Shown: positions 26,898 to 43,062 of the stretch, piece after piece | Layout of the letters: each line of letters opens with the position of its first letter | Numbering within the stretch: position 1 is the first letter of the stretch | Source: Deltaproteobacteria bacterium | Lineage (GTDB): Bacteria; Myxococcota_A; UBA796; GCA-2862545 | Length of the DNA stretch: 64,000 nt | Assembly (NCBI GenBank): GCA_006226595.1 | Contig: SBGP01000109.1 | Coordinates: 1 to 64,000 of the forward strand | Direction of reading: 5' to 3' | Translations under genes and position numbers: made by a program | The notes under the pieces: model-generated | What the model was told of the DNA's origin: nothing | The model's input: the letters and a program-made list of their open reading frames with translations, nothing else | The model's database searches: none

Positions 26898-29800
26898 TTG
26901 CGCAGTCCGCTTCTCCTGCTCGCCCTGCTCAGTGTGCCCGCCGTGAGCGGGGTCACCGAGGTCGTCGTGTGCACCGGCACCGTGTACGACACGACGGGAT
27001 ACCTGGTGACCTGCGACTACCCCAACGTGAACCAGGCGCTGGAGTCTGGCGCGTCGACGATCTACGTGTACGCGAACGGCTCGGGCCAGGGCTATCCGCC
27101 GTTCACCGTGGGACGGGCGGTGAGCATCGCGGGCCTGCCGAACCTCGCCGCCAAGTACCCGACCTTCGACTCGGCGGCGGCCCAGCCTGCCGCCACGCTG
27201 GCGTGCACCAACTGCCCGATCACGATCGCCAACCTCACCCTCGACGGCACCGCCTACCGGTCGCTGCAGGTCGACGGCGCCACCGTCACCGCCCAGAACC
27301 TCGAGCTGCTCGCCGAGAGCCAGGCCACCGACGCCGAGCCCGCGATGGTCATGTGGGGCGGCTCGTTCGAGGGCACGGGCGGCGGGCTGACCACCATCCA
27401 GCAGGCCATCTCGATGTATGGCGGCCAGGCGCGGTGGACCGACGGCGTGTTCGAGTCCGAGGATGGCTACCTGCTGCTCTCCGGGGGCGGAACCTTTCGC
27501 TTCTACAACAGCCAGCTGTTCAGCCCCGGCTTCGGCAACGGCATCCAGGTCGACAGCGGTCGGGTCGAGCTGCTCCAAGGCACCGAGCTCCACGGCCACT
27601 CCTCCGACGAGGTCGACACGCGCGCCGAGGGCAGCCTCGTCGAGGTCGGCGGCGGCGACTTCTACTGCCAGGACGCCATACTCAGCGACGGCTACGGCTG
27701 GGCTGGCACACTCATCTACGCGTTCGGCACCCAGGGCAGCCCCGCGGGCTCGGTCGAGCTCGATGGCTGCACCCTCGACAGCGGGGTGACCTCGGGCGGC
27801 GACGGTGGCCTCGTCTTCCTCCAGTACTTCCAGAGCATCGTCGCGACGGACACGGTGTTCTCGAATGGCGAGGGCTCGAACGGCGGCGCGGTGAAGCTCA
27901 TCGATGTCGAGTCCGCGCGGTTCAACGGCGGCACGTTCAGCAACAACAGCGCCGTGGGCCTCGACGCCTCGGTCGGACATGGCGGCGCCATCGGTGCGAT
28001 CAGCACCCCCCTGATGCTCGACCACGTGCAGTTCACCGGCAACAGCGCCGTGCACGAGGGCGGCGCCGTGTACGCGGGCAACCTCGCGGGCCTCGACTAC
28101 GACGGCAGCCTCGAGGTGTGGGGAGGCAGCTACAGCAGCAACCTCGGACGCCAGGGCGGCGCGCTGTTCGTGAACGACCTCACCACCGTGTCCCAGGTCT
28201 ACGGCGGCGCCACCTTCGACAACAACGACGCCGAGCAGGGCGGCGCGGTCTACATCTCGAACAGCCCGTGGACCGACGCAGACAGCGCCTACACGAACAA
28301 CCGCGCCACCGAGGCGACCAGCTCGTGGAACGAGGGCGGCGCGATGGTCACCGACGGCTCGCTCGTGCAGATCTCCGGCGCCTCGTTCGCAGGCAACCGC
28401 ACGGCGGGCTTCGGTGGCGCCGTGTCCGCCGACGAGTTCGCACAGCTGCAGATCGACGACAGCCGCTTCTCGGCGAACGTGGCGGACAGCACGGGCGGCG
28501 CCCTCGACATCCCGGCCACCAGCCTCGGCTGGGTGAACAACTCGGTGTTCTGCCGCAACAGCTCGGGCAGCGAGGGCGGGGCGATCTTCGCGTTCGGCGG
28601 CAGCGACGCCAGCACGGGCAGCTGGCGCAACCTCGTGTTCTTCGCCAATGACGCGGTCAACGGCGGGGCGATCCACGCGGATGGCGGCGCCGTAGCCCTT
28701 GCCTACAGCACCTTCGCGTACAACGACGCGACGGCCGGTGGCAGCCTCTACGCCGACTACGGCGGCGAGATCGCGGTGAGCACCAGCCTGCTCGCGTACA
28801 CGGTCGGCGGCGACGGCGCCCAGCTCGGTGCGAACGACGCGCCCGCCCTGTCGCTCGCGGGCTACGCCTACCAGAACACGGCGCAGACGGCCGGGGCGGG
28901 GGTGTCGAACACGATGGTCGCCCTCAACGCCGACCCCTTCGTGAACCTGTCGTCGAGCGCCGACTGCGCGGCCCTGTCGTGGGTGGTCAACGACGACGTC
29001 GGCGGCGCCACCGCGGGTACCGACCCGCTGAACCCACCCGACACGCTCGATGCCGACGGCGATGGCGTGTCGGTGGCCGATGGCGACTGCGACGACACCG
29101 ACCCCACCCGCTACCCCGGCAACGCCGAGGTGTGCGACGCGAACAACGTCGACGAGGACTGCGACGGGCTCGCGGACGACCTCGACGTCGATGGCCCCGC
29201 GCCCACCGGAACGACCCGCGTGTTCTTCGACGAAGACGGCGACGGGTGGGGCAACGTCGCGCACCAGCTGTGTGATCCGGGGCCCCGCTACGTCGCGCAG
29301 GGCGGCGACTGCAACGAGGCAGACACCGCGATCAACCCGGGCGCCACCGAGGTCTGCGACGATCTCGGCGTCGACGAGGACTGCGATGGCGTCGCCAACG
29401 GTGCCGACGCCGACGGCGCGAGCGTGCGCTACACCGACGCGGACGGCGACGGCTACGGCGACGACGCCACCGGCGCGGTGCAGTGTCCCGGTGACGGCCT
29501 CGTCGAGGCCAGCGGCGACTGCGACGACGCGGCGGCCACGGTCAACCCGGGCATGCAGGAGCAGTGCGACCCCGACAACGTCGACGAGGACTGCGACGGG
29601 GCTGCCGACGACGCAGACACCGGCGGGGCTCGCGGGCTGTCCCAGTTCCACGCCGATCGCGATGTCGACGGGTTCACCGGCGGCGACACCGTGCTGCGCT
29701 GCGACCCGACCGAGCAGTACCTCGAGGCGCCGAGCGAGCTTCTCGACTGCGACGACAACAACGGCGAGATCTACCCGGGCGCGCCCGAGTACTGCGGCAC

Positions 29801-30284
29801 CGGCGAGGACGAGGACTGCGACGACCTGATCGACGAGGACGACGCGGTCGACGCCATCGAGTGGTTCGTCGACGCGGATGGCGACACCTTTGGGGCCGGC
29901 GATCCGACCCTGGCCTGCGCCGCGGACGGGCTGGTCGACAACGACCTCGACTGCGACGACACGAACGCCGACATCAACCCGCTCGCCGAGGAGGACTACA
30001 CCGACCTCATCGACGAGAACTGCGACGGCAACATCGGCGACCAGGACGAGGACGGGTTCCTCAACGCGGCGGTCGCGACCGAAGGCCCCATCGACTGCGA
30101 CGACACCGACAACCGCATCCACCCCGAGGCGACCGAGATCCCCGGGGACGGCATCGACCAGGACTGCACCGGCGAAGATGCGGTGAGTGTGATCGGCGGC
30201 GGCTGTGGCTGCGAGACCAGCGGACGCGGTGCGTGGTGGCTGGCCATTCCCCTGCTTCTCGGCGCGCGCCGCCGGAGGGCCTGA
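26898..30284 (+). CDS. Large surface protein: beta-helix, six MopE-type repeats, MYXO-CTERM-like tail
   Basis: 1128 aa. TTG start eight bases after GGAGG; signal peptide to about residue 20. Residues 30-700 are a right-handed beta-helix with polymorphic-membrane-protein-like FxxNxA...GGAI/V turns. From about 715 come six repeats of DGDCDDxDPxxxPGAxExCDxxxVDEDCDG type, the calcium/metal-binding MopE motif. The end is GGGCGC, a hydrophobic helix and RRRR, a MYXO-CTERM-like anchor. It is probably an adhesin or surface scaffold; beta-helices can also be polysaccharide lyases, but no active site is evident. The last two MopE repeats are degenerate. Confidence 0.88.
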   Translation: MRSPLLLLALLSVPAVSGVTEVVVCTGTVYDTTGYLVTCDYPNVNQALESGASTIYVYANGSGQGYPPFTVGRAVSIAGLPNLAAKYPTFDSAAAQPAATLACTNCPITIANLTLDGTAYRSLQVDGATVTAQNLELLAESQATDAEPAMVMWGGSFEGTGGGLTTIQQAISMYGGQARWTDGVFESEDGYLLLSGGGTFRFYNSQLFSPGFGNGIQVDSGRVELLQGTELHGHSSDEVDTRAEGSLVEVGGGDFYCQDAILSDGYGWAGTLIYAFGTQGSPAGSVELDGCTLDSGVTSGGDGGLVFLQYFQSIVATDTVFSNGEGSNGGAVKLIDVESARFNGGTFSNNSAVGLDASVGHGGAIGAISTPLMLDHVQFTGNSAVHEGGAVYAGNLAGLDYDGSLEVWGGSYSSNLGRQGGALFVNDLTTVSQVYGGATFDNNDAEQGGAVYISNSPWTDADSAYTNNRATEATSSWNEGGAMVTDGSLVQISGASFAGNRTAGFGGAVSADEFAQLQIDDSRFSANVADSTGGALDIPATSLGWVNNSVFCRNSSGSEGGAIFAFGGSDASTGSWRNLVFFANDAVNGGAIHADGGAVALAYSTFAYNDATAGGSLYADYGGEIAVSTSLLAYTVGGDGAQLGANDAPALSLAGYAYQNTAQTAGAGVSNTMVALNADPFVNLSSSADCAALSWVVNDDVGGATAGTDPLNPPDTLDADGDGVSVADGDCDDTDPTRYPGNAEVCDANNVDEDCDGLADDLDVDGPAPTGTTRVFFDEDGDGWGNVAHQLCDPGPRYVAQGGDCNEADTAINPGATEVCDDLGVDEDCDGVANGADADGASVRYTDADGDGYGDDATGAVQCPGDGLVEASGDCDDAAATVNPGMQEQCDPDNVDEDCDGAADDADTGGARGLSQFHADRDVDGFTGGDTVLRCDPTEQYLEAPSELLDCDDNNGEIYPGAPEYCGTGEDEDCDDLIDEDDAVDAIEWFVDADGDTFGAGDPTLACAADGLVDNDLDCDDTNADINPLAEEDYTDLIDENCDGNIGDQDEDGFLNAAVATEGPIDCDDTDNRIHPEATEIPGDGIDQDCTGEDAVSVIGGGCGCETSGRGAWWLAIPLLLGARRRRA

Positions 30285-36509: not shown

Positions 36510-37376
<867 letters not shown>

Positions 37377-37622
37377 GAGAAGGCTCCTGCGCGCATGGGA
37401 TCGTTGATCCACGAAAAAGGTGGCCCCATGTAATCCATCCTGGAGGCCTGTGGCTGTGACAGGTGTGTCCAAACCCCGAGAAGAAGCCGCACGCGCAGCA
37501 GAACTCATTTCGTTGACATCTCCTGGACATGCACACAACCGACGTTGCGGGCCGCGAACTCACACAGAGTGCTTGAACCCCTCCCCTCTCTTGTTCCGCG
37601 TTGAGTACACTGCCGCGAGATC
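37377..37622. promoter_or_regulatory. Divergent control region of the PLD operon and the PP2C fusion gene
   Basis: No gene supported. A TTGACA at 37513 on the plus strand has a poor matching -10 (CAACCG at 17 bases), and a TACACT at 37606 lies 11 bases before the PP2C start without a matching -35. Promoters of both transcripts must lie here, but none is clear. Confidence 0.3.
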
Positions 37623-39122
37623 ATGGCATCCGGTAGACCACCCCACTTCCCGCCAGGGACCGCCATCGGCACCCGCTTCACCGTGGAGGGGTTGGTGCGT
37701 CTGTCCGAGGGGCGGATGTTCTACCTGGTCAACGATCGGCGTCCTGACCAGGAATTCGCCCATTGCTGGGACTGTGGGAAGTCCGACAATCCCCGCGAGT
37801 CCGCCAAGTGCGAGCAGTGCGGGAGCGACCTCCGCGGACGCCGGTTCCTGATGTCCGCGCGCTGGGACGAGAAGCGCTTCAAGGCCTACGAAGCCTTCTT
37901 CGCGCTCAAGTTGCGCCACCCCGGACTCGCCTCCCCGATCGAGGTGCTCCGAAAAGATGGCCAGCTGCTGTCGATCATCCCCTACAACGGCGAGGGGCTG
38001 ATGCTCGACGAAGCGGCCCCGCTGTCGAACGCACGTGTGCTGGATGTGGGACAGCGGATCGCCGGCATGGTCGCGTGGCTGCAGCGCCACGGCGTGAAGC
38101 TCGCGAAGCTCACTCGCGCCAACATGCTGATCTCGCCGGACAACACCGTGCGGCTGTTCGACCTCGAGGTCAGCGACGTGCTCCCCGGGCCCGTCCCAGA
38201 GGCCGAGCGTGCCACCGAGCTCAAGTCGCTGGGCTTCATCCTCCGTCGCTACTGCAACGTCGAGGCCGAGGACCTGACCGCGTTCCTCGCGTCGACCGAA
38301 GAGGGCGCCTACCCCACGCCCGCCGCCTTCGGTCGCGCCGTCGAGCAGCGCTTCCCCGCCTTCGAGGGCGTGACCTACAAGCCCCTGACCGGCGCGATGT
38401 CCGATGTCGGCCTGGTCCGACAGCTCAACGAGGACAACTGGGGCTGGCGCAAGCTCTCGAACCGCGCACGTCTGTACGTCGTCGCCGACGGCATGGGCGG
38501 ACACGACGGCGGTGAGGTCGCGAGCGACGTCGCCGTGCGCACGATCTGCAAGGTCGCCTTCGAGCGCGAGAACAGCGAGAACCCCCACGAGGATCTCGAT
38601 GCTGTCGAGAACCTGCTCGACGAGGCGTTCCAGTCCGCGAACAACACGGTCAAGTCGCAGGCCGAAGAGAAGGGCAACGACATGGGCACCACGCTCGTGG
38701 CGCTGCTCATGCTCGAGAATCGCGTGGCCTTCCTCGCGAACGTCGGCGACAGCCGCGCATACCTGATCCGCGACGGGCAGCTGCACCAGGTCTCCAAGGA
38801 CCACAGCCTCGTCGCGAAGATGGTGGAGCGCGGCAAGCTCACCAAGGAAGAGGCGCGCGTGCACCCGCACAGCAACATCCTCCTCCGCACGGTGGGCACC
38901 GAGCGCGATGTCGAGATCGACATCTTCCGCGTCGACGTGGAGCGCGGCGATCGCATCCTCATGTGCTCCGACGGTCTGTGGGGCGAGGTCGAGGATCGCG
39001 ACATCGAGGGCATCCTCAACACCTACGGCGATCCGCGCATCGCGAGCCGCGAGCTCGTGCGGGCGGCCCATCAGGGCGGCGGCAAGGACAACGTCACCCT
39101 GGCGATCGTCGAGGTCTCCTGA
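37623..39122 (+). CDS. Zinc-ribbon / pseudokinase / PP2C phosphatase fusion
   Basis: 499 aa, cytoplasmic. The N-terminal 250 residues follow a Ser/Thr kinase layout but with a zinc ribbon (C48xxC51, C63xxC66) inserted in the N-lobe. The catalytic loop reads LAKLTRANML instead of HRDLKPxN, and DFG is replaced by DLE (180-182), so it is a pseudokinase. Residues 257-498 are a complete PP2C domain: NED (270-271), ADGMGGH (288-294), MGTTL, VGDSRAYL, CSDGLWG and GGKDNVT carry the two-metal site. The expected reaction is Ser/Thr dephosphorylation controlled by the pseudokinase module. Such phosphatases often counter Hanks-type kinases, but none is encoded here. Confidence 0.9.
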   Translation: MASGRPPHFPPGTAIGTRFTVEGLVRLSEGRMFYLVNDRRPDQEFAHCWDCGKSDNPRESAKCEQCGSDLRGRRFLMSARWDEKRFKAYEAFFALKLRHPGLASPIEVLRKDGQLLSIIPYNGEGLMLDEAAPLSNARVLDVGQRIAGMVAWLQRHGVKLAKLTRANMLISPDNTVRLFDLEVSDVLPGPVPEAERATELKSLGFILRRYCNVEAEDLTAFLASTEEGAYPTPAAFGRAVEQRFPAFEGVTYKPLTGAMSDVGLVRQLNEDNWGWRKLSNRARLYVVADGMGGHDGGEVASDVAVRTICKVAFERENSENPHEDLDAVENLLDEAFQSANNTVKSQAEEKGNDMGTTLVALLMLENRVAFLANVGDSRAYLIRDGQLHQVSKDHSLVAKMVERGKLTKEEARVHPHSNILLRTVGTERDVEIDIFRVDVERGDRILMCSDGLWGEVEDRDIEGILNTYGDPRIASRELVRAAHQGGGKDNVTLAIVEVS

Positions 39123-40051: not shown

Positions 40052-40139
<88 letters not shown>

Positions 40140-40175
40140 TAAGCGTTCTAGGGGGACGTGTGAGCGTAGCTGTGC

Positions 40176-40265
40176 TGGCGGAGGAGGCGGGATTCGAACC
40201 CGCGGTAGGCGTGAACCTACAGTGGATTTCGAATCCACCGCCTTCAACCACTCGGCCACCCCTCC
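40176..40265 (-). tRNA. tRNA-Ser(CGA)
   Basis: 90 nt with an encoded CCA. The anticodon loop TTCGAAA is closed by GTGGA/TCCAC, reading UCG. A long variable arm (GTAGGTTCACGCCTAC) confirms serine. The T-loop is GGTTCGAATCC. It lies 14 bases after the tadA stop and 36 bases before the second serine tRNA, probably in one transcript. Confidence 0.96.
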
Positions 40266-40279
40266 TTGATCAGCACCGC

Positions 40280-40750
40280 TTACCCCTTGCGCTTCCTCCG
40301 TAGCTCTCGAAAGAACTCCTTGAGGACCGCGCTGCAGTCGTGCTCCTCGATGCCCGTCACCACGTCGAAGCGGTGATTGAGGGCGGGATTGCTCGACAGG
40401 TCGTCGAGGGTCCCGAGGAAGCCTCCCTTGGGGTCGCTGCAACCGTACACACACCGCTCGATCCGCGAGAGCACCATGGCGCCAGCACACATCGGGCAGG
40501 GCTCGAGGGTGACGTAGACCGTGCATCCTTCGAGTCGCCAGCTCCCCAGCGCCTCCGCCGCGCGTCGCATGGCGAGCAGCTCGGCGTGAGCAGTGGGGTC
40601 CTGCAGGTGTTCCCGCAGGTTGTGGCCGCGCGCGATGATCCGGTCGTCGTGGACCACGACGGATCCGACCGGTACCTCCCCGAGCTCCGCTGCCAGAGCA
40701 GCCTCGGCGAGGGCTTCGCGCATGTAGTGGTGGTGGACGGAATCGTTCAC
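40280..40750 (-). CDS. tadA: tRNA-specific adenosine deaminase
   Basis: 156 aa. Cytidine-deaminase fold with the zinc ligands in HAE (catalytic Glu) and PCPMCAGA, and TLEPCPMC as the TadA signature. It converts A34 to inosine in tRNA-Arg(ACG) so that CGN codons can be read. The start is a GTG preceded by GGTGGA, which gives the usual length; the upstream open frame adds non-conserved residues. The C-terminus is Arg/Lys-rich (FFRELRRKRKG), as in other TadA proteins that contact RNA. It is followed by two serine tRNA genes and the SRP RNA. Confidence 0.95.
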   Translation of the reverse strand: MNDSVHHHYMREALAEAALAAELGEVPVGSVVVHDDRIIARGHNLREHLQDPTAHAELLAMRRAAEALGSWRLEGCTVYVTLEPCPMCAGAMVLSRIERCVYGCSDPKGGFLGTLDDLSSNPALNHRFDVVTGIEEHDCSAVLKEFFRELRRKRKG

Positions 40751-41040
40751 ATTCCACCGTTCAAAGAGCGGCGGGCGTGTGCCCTGGAACGGCCCGTGTT
40801 TATGCGCGCGGTGGGGGTGTGTCAACCACGAAACGACGTGGACGGCCGAAAGGCATCCGGATCGTCGCGCTCACCACCGTGGGACTTTCTCTCGTCGGCA
40901 GCCAAAGCCGCACGACCCCGGCCACCGCGGGAGCACACGTCCCCTGGACACACCACTTGACCCGCGGTGGTAGGCTCCTACCTGGAAGGAATCCAGCCCT
41001 TGAGGGGTCGTGGGTTCAGGACCGTTCCCAGGGAGATCCC

Positions 41041-41853: not shown

Positions 41854-43062
41854 ATGCGCGTCCCCAAGCCGATCCCCGAGCTCGCTCGGGCCGTCGATGA
41901 CGCCGGCGGGCGCGCCCTGCTCGTCGGTGGTGGGGTGCGTGACGAGCTGCTCGGCAAGAAGCCAAAGGACCACGATCTCGAGGTGTACGGCCTGGAGGTC
42001 GACGCACTCATCGACGTGCTTCGGCGCTTCGGCCGCGTCGACGAAGTGGGTCGCAGCTTTGGCGTACTCAAGCTGACCCCACGCGGCGGCGCGGAGATCG
42101 ACGTCGCGATCCCACGGCGCGACAGCAACGCGGGGCCCGGCCACCGGGGCATTGCCGTCGAGGGCGACCCCCACATGTCCATCGAGGAAGCGGCCCGGCG
42201 ACGCGACCTCACCGTGAACGCCCTCCTCTACGATCCGCTCACCGACGAGCTCATCGACCCGCACGGCGGCCTCGCCGACCTGCGAGCCCAGCGGCTGAGA
42301 GCGGTCGACGCGGACACCTTCCTCGAGGACCCGCTCCGCGCCCTGCGCGCCGTGCAGTTCGCCGCTCGGCTCGGGTTCACCCCGGACCCCTCGCTGGTGG
42401 TGCTGTGTCGCGAGGCGTCGCTCGATGAGCTGCCCGCAGAACGCATCTTCGGCGAGTGGGCCAAGCTGCTCATCAAGGGCACCCGCCCATCGCTCGGCAT
42501 GACCCTCGCTCGCGACGCCGCCATCGGCCGTCGCGTGTTCCCCGACCGCGTGGACGACCCCGCGCTGGACGAGGCCCTCGACCGCCTCGCGGCCTGGCCA
42601 CACCGCGATCGCAGCTCCGGCTGGCGGCTCGCCGCCGGCCTGCTGGTCTGGCTGGCCGCGACCCCCGACCCCGAGCCCACTCTCGAACGGCTCGGCGTCC
42701 ACCGCTACGAGGGCTTCGCGCTCCGCCGCGAAGTGCTCAGGGCGCACGCCGCCGCCGAGGCCCCGGCAACGACCGCTACCGACCTTCGGCGGCTGTCGGA
42801 CCGCTCACAGGTCCTCCTGGGCCTCGCACTGCGCCATGCGCGCGGCGAGGACGTGGATGGCGCCCTCGCGCTGGCCGCCGCCCTCGGCGTGCTCAGAGAC
42901 CCACCACCGCCGCTCCTGCGGGGCGCCGACCTCCGAGCGCTCGGCATGCCCGCCGGTCCGGCCATGGGCCTGCTGCTTCGCGAGGTGTACGAGGCACAGC
43001 TCGACGGAACCATCACCGACGCCGACGAGGCCGCAGCCATGGCCCGCGCGAAGCTGGCCTAG
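41854..43062 (+). CDS. tRNA nucleotidyltransferase / poly(A) polymerase family protein
   Basis: 402 aa, class II nucleotidyltransferase. GGGVRDELLG (P-loop-like) at residue 25, metal-binding KDHDLEVYG (DxD) near 40, RRRDLTVNALLYD near 120 and EDPLRALRAVQFAARLG near 155 are the conserved head and neck motifs. The body domain is helical. The activity is either CCA addition to tRNA 3' ends or polyadenylation; the sequence alone does not decide. The two serine tRNAs nearby encode their CCA, so a repair role is more likely than primary synthesis. There is no HD domain. Confidence 0.9.
   Translation: MRVPKPIPELARAVDDAGGRALLVGGGVRDELLGKKPKDHDLEVYGLEVDALIDVLRRFGRVDEVGRSFGVLKLTPRGGAEIDVAIPRRDSNAGPGHRGIAVEGDPHMSIEEAARRRDLTVNALLYDPLTDELIDPHGGLADLRAQRLRAVDADTFLEDPLRALRAVQFAARLGFTPDPSLVVLCREASLDELPAERIFGEWAKLLIKGTRPSLGMTLARDAAIGRRVFPDRVDDPALDEALDRLAAWPHRDRSSGWRLAAGLLVWLAATPDPEPTLERLGVHRYEGFALRREVLRAHAAAEAPATTATDLRRLSDRSQVLLGLALRHARGEDVDGALALAAALGVLRDPPPPLLRGADLRALGMPAGPAMGLLLREVYEAQLDGTITDADEAAAMARAKLA

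Follow-up and report, generated by a model that had tools for sequence, protein, structure and literature searches.

What can a kinase domain that has lost its catalytic aspartate do when it is joined in a single chain to a protein phosphatase whose metal ligands all appear to be in place? The question is raised by a plus-strand gene at positions 37623..39122 of the window, that is, the whole 64,000-nucleotide stretch of deltaproteobacterial DNA analysed here, which encodes 499 amino acids followed by a stop codon. Judging from its sequence and from a full-length AlphaFold2 model (pLDDT 93.8, pTM 0.90), the protein is a dead kinase domain carrying a four-cysteine ribbon in its N-lobe and joined to an active-looking PP2C phosphatase. 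To our knowledge, the signal input to bacterial PP2C phosphatases is mostly unknown beyond cases such as RsbU and SpoIIE.

The sequence-only reading had assigned a kinase layout to the N-terminal half and placed the kinase region at residues 70−250. The layout was borne out by profile matches, Pfam and structure prediction, and residues 70−250 did fold as kinase, but the domain started at residue ~14 since the ribbon is an insertion between β2 and β3. AlphaFold2 with 41 family rows as input returned residues 1−252 at a pTM of 0.88 and a pLDDT of 93.6, and the predicted structure showed a full, confidently modelled two-lobed kinase fold over residues ~14−250 (37662..38372). By DSSP of the model, with kinase names that are our own assignment, strands β1 (residues 19−28) and β2 (31−37) are followed by the ribbon and then by β3 (74−80; 37842..37862), β4 (107−111) and β5 (114−120), whereas the helices comprise C (83−94), E (136−155) and, past the catalytic-loop and DFG counterparts, three more at 198−209, 216−226 and 233−248. 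The activation segment is short in the model, the next helix after D180 beginning only at residue 198. The closest PDB fold was PknI (VIA-align Z 16.8, rmsd 3.0 over 201 residues), followed by PknB (Z 16.3, rmsd 3.4, 200 residues), the Rv3910 domain (Z 15.8, rmsd 3.3, 208 residues) and PknG (Z 15.2, rmsd 4.0, 215 residues), Z gaps below 1 counting as ties; Foldseek against PDB chains also matched PknB, at 1.1e-8.

Sequence profiles pointed in the same direction. A profile of 30 members (A1) matched 651 distinct chains of solved structures at E≤1, with a best E-value of 1.5e-6, and the best 60 of the 651 were protein kinases, either by name or by the common matched region. Pfam Pkinase was found at E≤1 in 18 of the 30 members (best 1.6e-6). 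When the alignment of 41 rows (A2) was compared by hhalign with 12 kinases from the window's own genome (E 8.1e-9), HGVKLAKLTRANMLI was paired with HGVLHRDLKPDNVMV and LFDLEV with LMDFGI; removal of the ribbon columns let the alignment to kinases run through the N-lobe over 200 columns (E 7.7e-9). The first 250 residues of the window protein reached no curated family cut-off in NCBIfam or Pfam. This half had a weak LanKC match (2.1e-5). A special kinship to LanKC/LanL was considered; the matches, with a best value of 6.7e-9, fell on the general kinase core and were taken as generic kinase similarity.

Both the HRD and the DFG residues had been called missing, which proved correct for the first motif and only partly so for the second. 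Position 162, where the HRD aspartate is expected, is Lys in the window protein and Asp in none of the 41 aligned rows; it lies in the catalytic-loop counterpart (residues 158−167; 38094..38123), whose Asn167 is kept in 39 of the 41. The DFG counterpart D180-L181-E182 (38160..38168), which hhalign aligned to DFG, retains its Asp in 41/41 rows, with the Phe position replaced by Leu or Pro in most rows and the Gly position (182) by Asp or Glu in 37. The counterpart of the β3 (VAIK) lysine, where hhalign leaves a gap, is likely, as our best guess, R80 (Arg in 39 rows and His in two), two residues past position 78, which is a small residue (S/A/T) in every row. R80 and an acidic residue at position 182 occur together in 36/41 rows. 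In the segment made of β1, the glycine-loop counterpart and β2 (residues 19−37; 37677..37733), the sequences indicate a loop that is clearly degenerate and apparently shortened: in the hhalign alignment, the register of which is uncertain here, the loop is two residues shorter, its first Gly has become S/A28, and G30 (40/41 rows), which retains another of the glycines, adjoins R31. Across the 41 distinct rows, 18 columns of the N-terminal half never vary, and many of these columns are charged and cluster near the glycine-loop counterpart and β2; R26, E29, R31, Y34, D38 and R40, which surround the former glycine loop and the ribbon anchor, are all invariant.

A kinase half without the catalytic Asp should not work as an ordinary kinase. 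SelO is a kinase-like protein that is active without the canonical catalytic Asp, and on this precedent D180 (41/41) and N167 (39/41) might serve a non-canonical transfer, for example AMPylation, in a domain that would then not be dead. We regard such hidden catalysis as very improbable given the loss of the HRD Asp, the degenerate and apparently shortened glycine loop, the short activation segment and, in the likeliest register, an Arg at the lysine position.

The second feature of the N-terminal half is the ribbon (residues 44−72; 37752..37838), with the pattern C48-x2-C51-x11-C63-x2-C66 that had already been placed in the N-lobe from the letters of the gene. In the AlphaFold2 model it occupies the loop between β2 and β3, and each of the four Cys positions is conserved in 40 of the 41 rows, so the pattern is not a chance one. 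Pfam DZR gave a half-match to residues 48−71 of the window protein (E 0.022−0.023; 15.3 bits, below the 27.3 cut-off) and was found at E≤1 in 20 of the 30 members. The single ribbon-less row (L066) comes from genome G003, and in this genome and G015, both of genus g3, the ribbon alone is absent from the main orthologue (L124, L125) with both flanking strands kept. The ribbon is thus a clean insertion, strongly kept yet dispensable in one genus, and its loss in the two genomes shows that the domain, whatever its function, can do without it. Mean pairwise identity was 0.55 in the N-lobe, 0.42 in the C-lobe and 0.65 in the PP2C domain, making the ribbon-bearing N-lobe the more constrained of the two kinase lobes. 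The g3 genomes, which lost the ribbon and kept the rest, and the fairly divergent C-lobe would suit a pseudokinase and ribbon that merely stabilise the PP2C domain or add bulk, without signalling. We consider this improbable, because 18 columns of the N-terminal half, many of them charged, are invariant and because the nearest solved relatives of the phosphatase half, tPphA and PstP, are single-domain PP2Cs that manage without such a domain.

The C-terminal half (residues 256−499; 38388..39119) belongs to the Stp1/IreP PP2Cs, the group of PstP and tPphA, as judged from its curated score and from every ligand position. Residues 259−496 scored 251.1 bits with the NCBIfam model NF033484 against a cut-off of 230, in agreement with Pfam, and the nearest solved relatives were tPphA (E 2.2e-43; we take 5iti/2j82 to be this protein) and PstP (9.4e-40). 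Both were matched over the PP2C domain only, the window protein adding a 250-residue pseudokinase in front. D289, G290, D353, D450 and D489, presumably the metal-binding positions as in solved PP2Cs, were invariant in 45/45 proteins (44 relatives and the window protein), which upheld the earlier call of a complete ligand set; from these ligands we infer that this half is an active Ser/Thr phosphatase. In the full-length model, ~7 residues (249−255) separate the last kinase helix (233−248; helix and junction together at 38319..38387) from the first PP2C strand, and this short junction together with the pTM of 0.90 suggests fixed packing of the two halves. The cyanobacterial PP2C family PRK14559 (NF011149) was matched by the window protein over the PP2C part only, with no homology over the N-terminal half among the matches listed.

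The fusion is conserved across one bacterial order. Of 58 close genomes searched with the N-terminal half, 55 had a match, with best E-values no weaker than 5.4e-41, and G001, G029 and G055 had none; in the genus-mate G001 an assembly gap is as likely as gene loss, since the CCA-type enzyme was likewise without a match there. When the A1 profile was run against 377 genomes of the phylum, with seven candidates scored per genome so that weak members may be missed, strong matches (E<1e-40) came from 60 of the 63 genomes in the window's order and from one of the 314 genomes outside it, G201, of the same class. The other out-of-order matches listed covered the generic kinase core only (about profile positions 79−211). 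A contig scan yielded 49 loci, whose records carry the labels Myxococcota, Deltaproteobacteria or Proteobacteria; a few of the species labels are evidently wrong. The PP2C fusion was kept in 44/44 complete proteins among these loci. Pairwise identities of the two halves correlated at 0.76, which is weak support for joint divergence because the rows share ancestry. Among viral contigs one stretch fit a pattern and none was confirmed. A Streptomyces plasmid match (H1, 75 percent coverage) appeared to have the same order and was set aside, its PP2C being preceded by what looks by eye like a MerR-like N-terminus.

Eleven more distant relatives (L112−L122) kept all four Cys; one of them is from G201 and the other ten are from genomes in the window's family. 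The main PP2C motifs were present in nine of them, decayed in L119, and the sequence of L120 is incomplete; the Asp before the MGTT-like motif persists in L122 alone, and eight have another residue there. L119 (G012:C12:1-3000) is a paralogue with ribbon and pseudokinase in which the PP2C motifs have decayed, and it appears to couple a pseudokinase to a pseudophosphatase.

G201 also encodes a different arrangement. An ORF of 1296 residues (L127; G201:C142:20000-27500, ORF from about 2712) begins with an intact-looking kinase (Pfam Pkinase 7.5e-28, with HGDIKPSN) and continues through a long acidic linker to a C-terminal ribbon and pseudokinase (profile E 4.6e-20), without PP2C. On the basis of this one protein, the ribbon-pseudokinase module seems exchangeable between phosphatase and kinase partners, which fits what is expected of an exchangeable regulatory module. 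The same ORF would also suit a targeting role, in which the kinase-mimicking pseudokinase pairs with a kinase of the cell, for example through the N-lobe contacts by which kinases pair with each other, and so brings the PP2C domain to the activation loop of that kinase, with the ribbon as part of the contact surface. The window's own genome has 152 Pkinase matches, and a search of it with the window protein gave 12 places, namely its own gene and 11 others that match over the PP2C half; with so many kinases per phosphatase, the phosphatases would need targeting. The strong conservation of the N-lobe and the presence of PknB-type kinases among the closest folds are likewise in its favour. Surface mimicry alone, however, needs neither the invariant D180 nor the near-invariant N167, both of which fall at the nucleotide cleft by alignment, and a conserved kinase neighbour is missing, so that we hold targeting as the chief role to be unlikely, if less so than a purely structural one.

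The surroundings of the gene varied by lineage. Among the 49 loci and the window, no partner kinase was found as a consistently adjoining gene. Some loci share with the window a divergent set of secreted-looking genes upstream (clusters of 9−12 loci, window included); the one at 36510-37538 of the window, on the minus strand, is divergently transcribed and encodes a secreted-looking protein with a Thr/Asp repeat linker, and related ORFs occupy the same place in 8/49 other loci. The plus strand at 26898-30284 encodes a large protein that looks secreted and in which D-x-D-G-D-G and Cys-Asp motifs recur, presumably similar to MopE-type repeats. Downstream of the fusion gene, two tRNA-Ser genes (anticodons gga and cga; 40052-40265, minus) adjoin a tadA-like deaminase gene (40280-40825, minus) and lie upstream of a poly(A)-polymerase/CCA-type gene (41854-43062, plus); the tRNA genes have counterparts in only 2/49 loci. 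The poly(A)-polymerase/CCA-type gene was considered as an operon partner. Of 40 loci in which the downstream sequence reaches 2.5 kb or more, 18 have this gene, usually ~500−800 bases on; we took the arrangement as neutral synteny. A consensus scan for promoters returned none.

Several known systems share single elements with the window protein. The kinase-homology domain of Rv3910 is borne by another kind of protein. The pseudokinase has the overall kinase fold in common with this domain, PknI and PknB (Z 15.8−16.8) and differs from them in the missing HRD Asp, the shortened activation segment and the inserted ribbon. In PknG the rubredoxin domain downregulates catalysis of the kinase, according to the part of the source concerned with it (PMC8546545). 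It resembles the ribbon, as we read it, in being a Cys module that binds metal and bears on a kinase domain. The PknG rubredoxin, in contrast, adjoins the kinase core instead of lying between β2 and β3, the kinase is active, and there is no PP2C. Excerpts of a 2025 review describe seven families of bacterial pseudokinases with functions unknown (PMC12599244). Closest in motif among them is the DYD family of actinobacteria and firmicutes, which is membrane-associated, has a β3 Arg that pairs with the second acid of a D-x-D motif, and is counted in these excerpts among the families divergent in ATP- and metal-binding motifs only (PMC12599244). The window pseudokinase resembles DYD pseudokinases and POMK in the Arg that probably replaces the β3 Lys and in the D-x-D/E that replaces DFG, but the HRD Asp is also gone here, whereas the DYD group as excerpted keeps HRD (PMC12599244). 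A word search of the review text found neither PP2C nor zinc (PMC12599244). Both domains in one protein, as here but in reverse order, with PP2C N-terminal to the kinase, are reported for Pseudomonas in the relevant portion of a 2005 survey (PMC1262709).

The domain order alone is not unique, since ribbonless fusions occur on cyanobacterial and Deinococcus plasmids, where the search for it also led. Eight plasmid PP2Cs (L130−L137) from Gloeothece, Nostoc, Tolypothrix, Trichormus and Deinococcus, annotated only as phosphatases, have a degenerate kinase-like domain N-terminal to PP2C and no ribbon. Most of them have FHA and kinase genes as neighbours, and vWA genes are often nearby as well. A profile of seven of the eight matched PknB (E 1.1e-5) and, by hhalign, the 12 same-genome kinases (E 2.4e-12); taken singly, two of seven had a Pfam Pkinase match. 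No special kinship between this domain and the window pseudokinase was detected by hhalign (probability 3.3), and the pairing of a pseudokinase with a following PP2C probably arose more than once. Distinctive here is the ribbon inside a pseudokinase N-lobe combined with PP2C and kept across one order, pseudokinases and regulated PP2Cs being already known. In the open-licence PMC literature we found no report combining pseudokinase, PP2C, bacteria and zinc ribbon, and the four papers there that mention both zinc ribbon and pseudokinase look unrelated, judging by their titles.

The reading we prefer, at a probability of roughly 60 percent, is a phosphatase regulated in cis, in which the pseudokinase is a sensor or recruitment module that gates the attached PP2C domain. 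It is supported by the kinase fold with an absent HRD Asp and a short activation segment next to a PP2C that is complete in 45/45 proteins, by the retention of the fusion in all 44 complete proteins, by the more conserved N-lobe and by the model of fixed packing. Counted against it are the loss of the ribbon in the g3 genomes, the lack of a consistently adjacent partner kinase, and the fact that a domain serving purely for structure or targeting would show a very similar pattern. That attached regulatory domains can switch a PP2C domain is shown by RsbU, described in part of one source as a PP2C under modular sensor control (PMC12143880), and by SpoIIE and RsbU, PP2Cs with a switch helix in the corresponding section of another (PMC8080068).

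In such a cis-regulated phosphatase, the conserved N-lobe residues near the ribbon anchor and the degenerate glycine loop would provide the sensor or docking surface, and the four-Cys ribbon between β2 and β3 would be occupied by metal. The pseudokinase may bind a ligand, possibly a nucleotide, through the conserved basic N-lobe residues together with D180 and N167; alternatively, the input may be a partner kinase or a substrate bound by the pseudokinase. Its state would reach the first PP2C strand by way of the last helix and the ~7-residue junction, which is short and apparently rigid, in the manner of the sensor domains of RsbU and SpoIIE. Control of the phosphatase by a putative nucleotide, metal or redox signal, as first suggested from the gene sequence, is plausible. 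A more specific version is possible, and we offer it tentatively: a so far undescribed pseudokinase family in which the ribbon caps the N-lobe and the shortened Arg loop (R26, R31 and R80, with D180 and N167) binds, but does not turn over, a putative anionic ligand (ATP/ADP or an alarmone, for instance) to gate PP2C, the same sensor being also present on a kinase of a related lineage.

With a dead kinase and a live-looking phosphatase locked in cis, the effect of a bacterial pseudokinase would be readable directly as phosphatase activity, and this in an order of which the window's genome alone gave 152 matches to kinases and about a dozen to PP2C. The kinase-like domains found in front of PP2C in cyanobacteria and Deinococcus suggest repeated origins of the pairing. 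If the more specific, ligand-binding version is true, the order would possess a ligand-controlled phosphatase made of one protein, the sensor module of which would also have been grafted onto a kinase in a related lineage.
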